A DNA stretch of 35,138 bases from Candidatus Iainarchaeum sp. (GTDB lineage Archaea; Iainarchaeota; Iainarchaeia; Iainarchaeales; JAAZKV01): assembly GCA_012799645.1 (NCBI GenBank), contig JAAZKV010000030.1:1-35138 (forward strand), in the 5' to 3' direction. A model generated the notes under the pieces. The model was not told the DNA's origin. It ran no database searches and saw only the letters and a program-made list of their open reading frames with translations. Position numbers and translations under genes: made by a program. Below, in pieces: positions 6,797-12,492 of the stretch. How positions within the stretch are numbered: the stretch's first letter is position 1; every line of letters begins with the position of its first letter.

Positions 6797-7582
6797 TCAT
6801 AATTTTTGATTAAGAACTTTGGAAGCATATTTGTTGGGATTTTCATTAGCAATAACTTCCAGAGATTTACCTTCTCTTAATTTTTTCCGAACAATTGTTT
6901 CTCCTTGATTATACGCTGTCAAAGCCAATTTGTGATTTTTAAATTTTTTATACAAATAAGAATAATATTTTGCAGCAACATCAATATTTTGTTTTGGATT
7001 AAAAGGATTACACTTATACTCTGGTTTAATAGAACTATTCCAAATAACAGGGGTTAGTTGTCCAAGACCAATATCTTTACTCTTTCCAACAACATACGGA
7101 TCCCACATTGATTCGTGTTGAATTAATTTAACCATTATTGTTTCAGAAACACCGTGCTTTTTTGCTGCTTCCTTCACCATTGGTAAATAAATACTTTTAT
7201 TGTGATTGATTTGTTTTTTTGAAAGCGGAGAAGATTTTATTCTGACTCCTCTTAATATAGCAGAAATATGACTTTGAGGCAATCTTGCCAAAGAAGAACC
7301 ACGAGTAAAAGAAGAAAAAGGAACAACCGCATTAGTAACCATATTATTCTTATTTTGTTGAGCACTCACAGTAGCAACATTTTTTGAAACTGCAGCAAGT
7401 TCTGCACTAACTTTATTAGGATTTGTTGATTGGATAGCACCTGAACCAAAAGCGAGCGAAGCGGATAATGCAGAAGCAGCAAATATTGAAGCTAATTTTT
7501 TACGAAAACTTTTGCGAATATCCCTCTCGGATTTTTTGGGTTTTGGTTTTATTAAACCACCACGATTTCTTCGTTTAAACAT
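6797..7582 (-). CDS. SLT-family lytic transglycosylase-like protein with basic N-terminus and hydrophobic signal/anchor
   Basis: LIQHESMWDPYVVGKSKDIGLGQLTPVIW ... KLALTAYNQGETIV fits the soluble lytic transglycosylase core (ES.WDP, GLGQLTP, AYN.G). ATG at 7582 (MFKRRNRGG) preferred. Confidence 0.85.
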   Translation of the reverse strand: MFKRRNRGGLIKPKPKKSERDIRKSFRKKLASIFAASALSASLAFGSGAIQSTNPNKVSAELAAVSKNVATVSAQQNKNNMVTNAVVPFSSFTRGSSLARLPQSHISAILRGVRIKSSPLSKKQINHNKSIYLPMVKEAAKKHGVSETIMVKLIQHESMWDPYVVGKSKDIGLGQLTPVIWNSSIKPEYKCNPFNPKQNIDVAAKYYSYLYKKFKNHKLALTAYNQGETIVRKKLREGKSLEVIANENPNKYASKVLNQKL

Positions 7583-9600: not shown

Positions 9601-9942
9601 TTATTTTTCTTCAATTATTTCAGTAATTGTTTTTTCTCTTTTTAGTGGAACTTTTTGTGTGGTTTCTTCTGAATCTTGAGGAGGTGATTTTTGGGTTGAT
9701 ATTGTTGTTTTTGTTTCAACTGTTTTTGTCACAGTGCTAGTTTCTGTTTTTTTGTCTTCCTCTGCTTTTTTTATTTCTGCAACAATTTTTTTCATTGATT
9801 CGTCTTTATTCTTTAATTTTTTTAAAGTGTAAAAATATGCATTAATCATTTGATCCAAATCAAGTTGTCTCTTAAAACCGAGTCTTGCCACATCTTCAAA
9901 ATACAATCTCACTATTCTAAAAGCTACTTCTTCATCATTCAT
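9601..9942 (-). CDS. Uncharacterised protein with ~45-aa domain shared with 10139-11038
   Basis: MNDEEVAFRIVRLYFEDVARLGFKRQLDLDQMINAYFYTLKKLKNK aligns with DDEEIAFKIIQTYFKEIARYGFKKQLTLDEIINAYFYALARVKRK. Confidence 0.75.
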   Translation of the reverse strand: MNDEEVAFRIVRLYFEDVARLGFKRQLDLDQMINAYFYTLKKLKNKDESMKKIVAEIKKAEEDKKTETSTVTKTVETKTTISTQKSPPQDSEETTQKVPLKREKTITEIIEEK

Positions 9943-9974
9943 AATTTACACCTCAATAAAAATTATTTCCACAA

Positions 9975-10136
9975 TTATTTTTTTCTTTTAAACCCTAACA
10001 AGAATCTTGAAAATAAACTTTTCTTTTTCTTTCTTGCTAATGCTTCGTTTACTTTTCTAACCCCTTCAGGATTTGACGGAGCATATGGCTTGATCCTACT
10101 TCTCCCCACTGATCCATTTCTTGCTTGCACAAACAC
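9975..10136 (-). CDS. Small basic protein (53 aa), GTG start, between the two paralogous-domain genes
   Basis: Reverse translation VFVQARNGSVGRSRIKPYAPSNPEGVRKVNEALARKKKKSLFSRFLLGFKRKK*; starts within a few nt of the upstream gene stop. Confidence 0.6.
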   Translation of the reverse strand: MFVQARNGSVGRSRIKPYAPSNPEGVRKVNEALARKKKKSLFSRFLLGFKRKK

Positions 10137-10138
10137 AC

Positions 10139-11038
10139 CTATTTTGTTATTCCTGCTTCTCTAACTGCTTTTTCTGCTTCTGGAGCATTTTTTCTTTTAA
10201 CTCTTGCTAGTGCGTAAAAATACGCATTAATTATTTCATCAAGAGTTAATTGTTTTTTGAAACCATACCTCGCAATTTCTTTGAAGTATGTTTGGATTAT
10301 TTTGAAAGCAATTTCTTCATCATCAGGATTAATCATTGAAGAAATATCATCCCTTGAAATTGATCTACTCATTGATGAAGAAATCATTTCTCTCAACATT
10401 TTCGAATCAACATCACTCCCACTCTTAACAATTTTTGTAACAGTTCTTGTTTTTGGTTTTTGTGGAACTTTTTTCACAATTGTTTTTGTTAAAGTTCTTG
10501 TTCTGTATTTTATTTTTGGTTTTGGTTTTATTACTCTTGTTTTAACCACTGTTTTTGTAACAGTTCTTGTTTTTCCTTTTTTTCCAAGTTTCCCTGCTTT
10601 TGCTAATCTCCATAAAGCAACTGATTCAGCCCAAGTTTTACCTAATCTCATTTGTGATCCAATAAATTGATTATATGCACTTGGTTTTCTTTTATTTTTT
10701 TCTTGAAGAGCTTTATATTTACTCCATTGTTTTGCGGCTTTAGTAAAAGACATTCCTGATTTTATTTGTTTTCTAATAAAAAGGTTATATTCAGAAACTC
10801 TTCCTCTTGAAACTTTTTTAGATTTTAGTTTAGCGATTTCTGCTTTAAGCATTTCAATATCTTTATCTTGTTTTAAGTTCTTTGCTTTTTCTTTCTTAAC
10901 AATTCTTTTCGCTTTCGCAACTTCTTTTTTATTACTAGATGCTTTTTTGTTAGCTAATTTAGCCATTTTTTTTGTTGCCAAAACTTCTTTCTTAACAACC
11001 TTTTTTACTTTTGAATGAGTAACTTTATTTTTAGCCAT
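10139..11038 (-). CDS. Lys/Arg-rich putative DNA-binding protein with two HMG-box-like repeats and C-terminal shared domain
   Basis: Repeats SEYNLFIRKQIKSGMSFTKAAKQWSKYKA and SAYNQFIGSQMRLGKTWAESVALWRLAKA; TRTVTKT.VK repeats; basic N-terminus. ATG 11038 (MAKNK) preferred. Confidence 0.78.
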   Translation of the reverse strand: MAKNKVTHSKVKKVVKKEVLATKKMAKLANKKASSNKKEVAKAKRIVKKEKAKNLKQDKDIEMLKAEIAKLKSKKVSRGRVSEYNLFIRKQIKSGMSFTKAAKQWSKYKALQEKNKRKPSAYNQFIGSQMRLGKTWAESVALWRLAKAGKLGKKGKTRTVTKTVVKTRVIKPKPKIKYRTRTLTKTIVKKVPQKPKTRTVTKIVKSGSDVDSKMLREMISSSMSRSISRDDISSMINPDDEEIAFKIIQTYFKEIARYGFKKQLTLDEIINAYFYALARVKRKNAPEAEKAVREAGITK

Positions 11039-11250
11039 AACAATCACTACTCTCCTAAATTAAATTCCTAAATTAACTAACTTACTAATATGTATAATAT
11101 GTTAATCAACTTTTAACCAAACTATAAGTAATTGTGGTAAAAACAATATAAAAAACCTTTCTATAACTCGAAAAAGTGAATAAACAATGGTTTTTTGGAA
11201 AATTAATAAATTTTGAAAAAAAGAACAAAAATAAGGCAAAATTCAATAAT

Positions 11251-12318
11251 TCAATTTTTGAAAATTACTCTTGAAAACCCACCTTTGCCTTTTTGTATTT
11301 TCTCTAATCTAATTAGTTTTTTTTCTTCAAGATCGGTTATTGCTTGACGAAGGGTTCTTTCTGCGAACTTGTTTTTTAGCGCAGAATAGATCTCTCCTGA
11401 ATCCACTCCATTATTTTTTGTTAAATAATCCAAAATCAATTTTTCTTTTTCTGAAAGAGTGGATGTTAGTTCAACTTTCACTACTTTTTCTTGCATAAAA
11501 GATTTACGAACATGAACAGCCTCTATTTTTTTTGAGTTCGCCCTCTCCGCAATCCTTGCGGATTTTAATAACACATCAATCGCTACTCTTGCATCCCCAT
11601 TATTTTTTGAAGCGTGAGCAGCACACAACCCAATCACACCATCACTCAACACGTTAGGGTAAAAAGCAAATTTTGCTCTTTCATTAAGTATTTCTTTTAA
11701 CTCAACATGAGTGTATTTTTCAAAACAAATAGAACTCGCTTGAAGAGAACTTCTAACTCTATCATCAAGTTTTGATAAAAAGAAATTATCATTAGAAATA
11801 AATGCTAACCCAATATTTATTTTAAATTGTTCAGGAAGTCTTGACAAATCATACAAAAGTTTTTTTGAATCATCATTAAGTAATTGCTCCGCTTCATCAA
11901 AAATAACGAAAGGAGTAATTTTTTTTGATTTTAACACTGCTACAAATCTATCAAAAATTTCTTCAGTGCTCACTCCTCTTTCAGAAACCGGATAACCAAA
12001 AGCGTTTGTTAGTTTAGCTAGAATTGAGTGTCTTGAAGAAAACTCAAAACAATTAATATAAACTCCTTTCACTCTATCAGAAAATTCTTCAAGTTCTTTT
12101 AAAACAAATTTTAGAGAAACAGTTTTTCCTGTTCCTGGAGAACCATAAATGAACACATGCGTAGGTTTTTTTCCAACTGATAAAGGTTTTAGTGCAAAAA
12201 CCAGTTCTTCTATTTCTTCATCTCTAAAAGGTAACTTTTCAGGAACATAATCAGGATAAAGAAATCTTTCATCTTTAAGAATGTGATTTTCAACACTATT
12301 ACTAAATATATTAGCCAT
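11251..12318 (-). CDS. cdc6: Orc1/Cdc6-family replication initiator ATPase
   Basis: FIYGSPGTGKTVSLKFVLKEL, FVIFDEAEQLL, DARVAIDVLLKSARIAE, C-terminal winged helix. ATG 12318 (MANIFSNS) preferred. Confidence 0.88.
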   Translation of the reverse strand: MANIFSNSVENHILKDERFLYPDYVPEKLPFRDEEIEELVFALKPLSVGKKPTHVFIYGSPGTGKTVSLKFVLKELEEFSDRVKGVYINCFEFSSRHSILAKLTNAFGYPVSERGVSTEEIFDRFVAVLKSKKITPFVIFDEAEQLLNDDSKKLLYDLSRLPEQFKINIGLAFISNDNFFLSKLDDRVRSSLQASSICFEKYTHVELKEILNERAKFAFYPNVLSDGVIGLCAAHASKNNGDARVAIDVLLKSARIAERANSKKIEAVHVRKSFMQEKVVKVELTSTLSEKEKLILDYLTKNNGVDSGEIYSALKNKFAERTLRQAITDLEEKKLIRLEKIQKGKGGFSRVIFKN

Positions 12319-12492
12319 AATCAAATAAGGTAGTAAAGGAATAAAAAACTTGACAAATAAGAAAAAAATATTTAATAAAACATTTGATAAAAAAAACAAA
12401 AATAAAACAAAAATCGTTTACAAAAACAAAATCTATTTATAAAAATAAAACCCAATTATAAAAACAAAATTCATTTTTATGAAAATTTATTT

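Follow-up and report, generated by a model that had tools for sequence, protein, structure and literature searches.

A nameless small domain encoded twice beside the second Orc1/Cdc6 gene of Diapherotrites archaea, and a possible two-subunit DNA-binding complex

Bacterial replication initiators have accessory and regulatory proteins, among them DiaA, HobA, SirA, YabA and Hda, which bind DnaA or help origin assembly. To our knowledge, few accessory factors of the archaeal initiator Orc1/Cdc6 are known, and the papers that we searched held nothing on such factors in DPANN archaea. In archaeal Orc1/Cdc6 neighbourhoods, genes for PolD, RFC or MCM adjoin cdc6, and linkage to cdc6 has been used to predict recruitment to origins, for example of DP1 with Cdc6 (PMC2643942). 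The locus described here is similar to these neighbourhoods in that genes are retained beside an initiator gene; however, the partners are uncharacterised proteins without a known family, and the initiator is a second paralogue rather than the PolD-linked one. We propose that the two encoded proteins, like DiaA, HobA, SirA, YabA and Hda, may bind an initiator or aid origin assembly. The bacterial proteins serve DnaA, which belongs to another initiator family, whereas here the contact is a predicted one and the likeness is in the proposed working only.

The locus was analysed in a window of 35,138 nt (the whole stretch of DNA examined) from a member of the Candidatus Iainarchaeum family (Diapherotrites, DPANN). 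The features are, in the order of transcription:

11251..12321, minus strand: orc1/cdc6 paralogue A (orc-A), an AAA+ ATPase with a Cdc6 lid (Pfam Cdc6_lid, 1.7e-23), the linked partner gene.
10139..11038, minus strand: putative large subunit, 299 aa, pI 10.6 (ORF, domain match, AF2 model).
10574..10804, minus strand: tandem helical-hairpin repeat, putatively DNA-binding (shuffle test, AF2 helices, sub-threshold DUF6434/YABBY matches).
10187..10324, minus strand: 45-aa domain, large-subunit copy (E 2.6e-29 against profile A1, of which this copy is a part).
9975..10136, minus strand: doubtful 53-aa basic ORF at a variable spacer position (codon score; without a conserved counterpart).
9601..9942, minus strand: putative small subunit, 113 aa (ORF, domain match, kept in 10 of 10 family genomes).
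9802..9939, minus strand: 45-aa domain, small-subunit copy (E 8.3e-30 against profile A1, of which it is likewise a part).

At its longest, the frame of the large gene has 302 aa and begins with a GTG at 11047, 204 nt from orc-A upstream of it; the ATG at 11038 (299 aa) is the better start.

Residues 239-284 of the large protein align with residues 2-47 of the small one with 26 of 46 identical and 40 of 46 positive (E 1e-19), a match that is, as judged by BLASTP, far beyond chance. The original prediction had noticed a shared domain by eye (23 identities in 36 columns) and had placed it at the C terminus of the large protein and the N terminus of the small one; the domain is real and slightly longer, and both placements are borne out. 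The consensus reads x-DEE-x-A-x3-L-V-x-x-Y-F-x-E-I-A-R-x-G-F-K-R-x-L-x-L-D-x-x-I-N-A-Y-F-Y-x-L-x-R-L-K, and these two copies are the only ones that score in the whole window genome. The 45-aa domain has no significant match in Pfam, NCBIfam, PHROGs or PADLOC, a PDB profile search with it gave nothing under E 0.2, and Foldseek searches with the models of both proteins (low to moderate confidence) matched no known fold. The open-access papers searched also contain no description of such a family. The domain appears to be a new one without a database name, in keeping with its earlier description as uncharacterised.

Several database likenesses were set aside. The Retinoblastoma-B match of the small protein in Pfam (E 0.0011, 19.3 bits against a cut-off of 26.9) falls mostly on the charged tail and is read as composition. 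An anti-phage defence system was rejected as well, the PADLOC matches being at chance level only (Cas10_Id, E 0.0033, 13.8 bits). The tail hub protein B gp39 of crAss001 (7qoj_I) has a motif, YF...G(F/Y)KK...D.II, that resembles the domain at E 0.23; however, this likeness is non-significant by sequence or fold, and kinship was rejected because the resemblance is lost with a deeper domain profile.

The large protein has a Lys-rich N-terminal helix (residues 8-73), the hairpin repeats (~79-149), a basic linker (150-235) and the domain (~239-284). Across 10 of 10 family genomes its pI is 9.8-11.5 and its K+R content 19-31%. The AF2 model, which was built on an alignment of only two sequences and is of low to moderate confidence, has a helix at 8-73, hairpins at 78-93/98-117 and 121-131/136-147, a disordered linker and helices at 238-257/266-294; the hairpin block has a pLDDT of 74-90. 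The repeat motifs are SEYNLFIRKQI..G.SF..A...W and SAYNQFIGSQM..GKT....V.LW. Their repeat-to-repeat score beats all 2000 shuffles in 10 of 10 genomes, with 8-14 identities in 30, and the hairpin repeat, at 82% mean column identity, is more conserved than the variable linker. This repeat, and no other part of the protein, has a local likeness to DUF6434 (PF20026, a profile of 64 positions) and to the YABBY C-terminal domain (PF04690, 69 positions), although all the matches are partial and below the curated cut-offs. The window protein has no DUF6434 match, and its relatives stay below the cut-off, the best being E 4.8e-4 in residues 101-129 of L079 (20.5 bits against a gathering cut-off of 26.8, profile positions 23-51). 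For YABBY, the window protein reaches 15.0 against 28.6 bits at profile positions 19-36, and 6 of 32 large proteins give sub-threshold matches (best E 0.024). These profile matches are a hint that the hairpin repeat may bind DNA. With regard to an HMG-box-like fold, the hairpins are modelled as two-helix units, for which Foldseek gave no match below E 3.9.

A basic protein with repeated putative DNA-binding hairpins, encoded beside a 212-nt, AT-rich intergenic region, might be a local transcription regulator that binds between orc-A and the large gene and autoregulates the cluster, with the small protein as co-factor or antagonist. This is improbable: a local repressor seldom has so long a coiled coil, or a basic low-complexity linker of such length, the intergenic gaps at the locus range from overlap to >2 kb, and no conserved inverted repeat was established.

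The small protein is made up of the helical-hairpin domain (2-47), a long helix, a disordered tail and, at the C terminus, a short conserved helix (EKTITEIIEEK), a motif whose like recurs in most small proteins. Its AF2 model, with helices at 3-20, 29-67 and 107-111 and a disordered tail, has a mean pLDDT of 58 (low to moderate confidence). Between the two genes, the 53-aa ORF that had been taken for a missed gene does exist, but it is doubtful as a gene and has no conserved counterpart. It begins with a GTG 2 nt past the preceding stop, no ribosome-binding site is visible, and its score of 0.26 bits per codon, compared with 0.45-0.58 for the real neighbours, falls among the highest values reached by spurious ORFs (95th percentile 0.10, maximum 0.30). 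Elsewhere in the genus the spacer position holds basic ORFs of 140-174 aa that are unrelated or barely similar to it, and the sister genus has no spacer ORF and essentially no gap between the large and small genes. Codon score and lack of conservation rule it out as a conserved third gene. Of the 'three-gene locus' of the original prediction, two conserved genes therefore stand, and the locus is better described as a pair, separated by a variable spacer, that follows an orc1/cdc6 gene. That gene, directly upstream of the large gene, had been overlooked and is the strongest clue.

Conservation of the pair in relatives, the other expectation for this locus, was found throughout the family: both genes are present in 10 of 10 genomes. 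With E up to 0.1 and a few weak matches included, a profile of 19 copies finds the domain in 67 of the 87 genomes of the phylum; with more diverse profiles, by which class-level copies become significant, the count is ~69 of 87, and the domain is also found in 18 of 19 genomes of a second archaeal phylum. Beyond both phyla, a sample of 389 archaeal genomes gave a single convincing case, G387 (1.5e-19), and a marginal one, G218. Domain paralogues lie at other sites in some genomes (L102:6702-7082(+), L070:4676-5392(+), L074:2463-3146(-), L075:4515-5411(+) and L076:2200-2895(+)) and carry a C-terminal module, G(F/Y)SYTNKKGQ.YYLH..GKLYYFS....LP.GY.VKEN..TGLP.LKKK. A taxonomically restricted family with such accessory paralogues, and with a weak likeness to a phage tail hub protein, could be a mobile-element or viral pair that settled beside orc-A. 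However, the queries tried found no relatives in IMG/VR or in phage or plasmid collections, PHROGs was empty, and the position is stable order-wide, so that this origin is highly improbable and largely refuted.

The link to orc1/cdc6 extends far beyond the window. The surroundings of the domain gene were examined in 65 domain-bearing phylum genomes, and in 52 of these, from 14 families, an orc gene precedes it on the same strand; all come from one phylum, so the samples are non-independent. The distance is within 400 nt in 38 of the 52, and for 4 of the 13 exceptions (G010, G030, G038, G048) the contig ends close upstream. Diverged class-level copies, which have lost five loop residues, also follow orc-A (L117, L118, L167), and this same place is an independent sign that they are genuine. 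Two orc genes were found in 5 of 5 domain-bearing Diapherotrites genomes tested, and a small tree puts Orc-A and Orc-B in different clades (support of 100 on both sides). Orc-B, of the canonical type, is encoded at G000:C2:52933, next to a gene that by eye reads as the PolD large subunit; Orc-A keeps the Walker-B DE and, in most cases, an R-finger-like arginine. Families f4, f10, f13, f16 and part of f8 have both orc paralogues and no detectable domain gene, and the domain proteins are therefore non-essential for Orc-A. The association is strong and non-obligatory. In three f8 genomes (G051, G052 and G055; L243, L242 and L233) without a detectable domain gene, the RFC large subunit follows orc-A (by eye); in these the locus is reorganised or lost.

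We also looked for an origin beside orc-A. No origin-like repeats conserved between genomes were seen when the upstream intergenic sequences were compared by eye. In the complete genome G045, the cumulative minimum of the sampled GC skew falls neither at orc-A, at 1.128 Mb, nor at orc-B, at 0.840 Mb, with the qualification that 12,482 of the 20,000 bases of G045:C1:868000-887999 (L200) are N in an otherwise single-contig genome, which makes that skew sample unusable. Neither the upstream sequences, unlike one another by eye, nor the skew samples lend support to an origin at this place.

The wider surroundings bear on other readings. The pair is flanked in the window by genes for a YGR210-like GTPase, the RFC large subunit, PheT and another aminoacyl-tRNA synthetase-like protein. 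(Also in the window, at 6797-7582 on the minus strand, is a gene for a lysozyme-like SLT transglycosylase, E 3.8e-23, which in an archaeon is presumably directed at bacterial cell walls.) With PheT, the synthetase-like gene and the GTPase gene nearby, a ribosome- or RNA-linked role could be imagined for basic coiled-coil proteins, which could bind RNA. We regard it as quite improbable, given that the translation genes are stable neighbours at a distance, whereas orc-A is the closest of the conserved partners on the same strand. The domain locus of the second phylum likewise adjoins a YGR210-like GTPase gene, with the RFC large subunit and PheT nearby. Because these three are common to both phyla, the neighbourhood probably predates the phylum split, and on that basis the small-protein form is probably the older one.

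Second-phylum genomes with the domain have one copy of it, mostly in a protein of 85-108 aa. Many of these small proteins (L148-L163) have acidic tails ending in F-x-F-D (FEFD, FKFD, FNFD, FDF), a possible protein-docking motif. At the loci examined the domain gene is not beside orc and typically follows two coiled-coil genes, the second of which encodes a DUF7121 (PF23435) protein (for example L153:3551-4920, L151:3582-5020 and L163:1968-3389); these coiled-coil genes have weak matches to SMC/Rad50 coiled coils. The window large protein has no DUF7121 match; still, the DUF7121 protein, which adjoins the single-domain protein, possibly plays the role of the coiled coil of the large protein.

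This arrangement favours the main rival to an Orc-linked function, namely a role in general chromosome architecture, in which the domain would be an oligomerisation module on DNA-bridging or DNA-compacting coiled-coil and basic proteins and the nearness of orc-A would reflect an information-processing neighbourhood. The Lys-rich and coiled-coil parts throughout the large proteins are in line with it, and so is a second copy of the pair in G070 (L111:3624-5224(+)), in which overlapping genes encode a 174-aa repeat protein and a 60-aa domain protein and are directly preceded by a ScpA-like gene (read by eye), ScpA being a condensin partner. However, in 14 families the domain gene stays directly beside orc-A as other neighbours come and go, and most of these genomes, including G000, have histones and Alba, so that a stand-in chromatin protein is not obviously needed. 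We consider an architectural role rather unlikely. The narrower reading of the large protein as a histone substitute was rejected, histones being found in 71 and Alba in 61 of 87 phylum genomes; neither the large nor the small protein has a histone-fold or Alba match in Pfam.

The history of the pair was followed in a domain tree of 115 copies and 49 columns, in which most forks are unresolved. The f1, f2, f6 and f7 copies from large proteins group together, away from the copies of small proteins (SH-aLRT 85-89), and the f1 small-protein domains form a group of their own (96); the duplication is thus probably older than the divergence of these four families. Domain shuffling, as originally suggested, is not favoured: the genes are tandem neighbours, and the tree, within what 49 columns can resolve, fits an origin of the pair by old tandem duplication. 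Both domains are fused in one protein in seven genomes (G008, G040-G043, G064, G065), and in the G008 fusion domain 1 falls inside the large cluster and domain 2 outside it. Gene fusions are classic, though inconclusive, evidence for joint function of separate proteins. That the two proteins have a common partner or form a complex is a plausible idea, which gains strength from the fused forms, while the pairing itself is something that we infer.

Our preferred reading, held tentatively and at somewhat less than an even chance, is that the two genes encode a two-subunit, Orc-linked DNA-binding complex, paired via the hairpin domain. The large subunit would hold on to DNA by means of a basic coiled-coil stem, the two tandem hairpins and the basic linker, and its C-terminal 45-aa domain would pair with its paralogue in the small subunit, or homodimerise. 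The tail of the small subunit, with its short conserved helix, may dock on Orc-A or another replication protein, and the complex may act in initiation by aiding the placement, bridging or regulation of Orc-A on DNA, at its origin or close by. This Orc-linked model is supported by the orc-A linkage, the fusions, the basicity of the large protein, the conserved hairpins, the ScpA-like neighbour at L111 and the conserved surroundings across two phyla. It is opposed by the consideration that neighbourhood is not interaction, by the second phylum, which has no orc neighbour, and by the domain-free lineages with both orcs; the origin repeats that were not seen, the G045 skew, the low-to-moderate-confidence models and a 212-nt gap that fits a separate promoter also count against it. 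A more specific version, which we think unlikely, is a lineage-specific DPANN accessory complex in which the two paralogous subunits and the second Orc1/Cdc6 would form a bridging or loading platform at origins, without a counterpart in other archaea.

A nameless domain family that stays beside a second Orc1/Cdc6 through most of a phylum is a small, expressible target (~100 and ~300 aa, plus Orc-A). If the complex forms, a group with very small genomes would have a co-factor for its initiator, and the retention of two Orc1/Cdc6 paralogues would be easier to explain.
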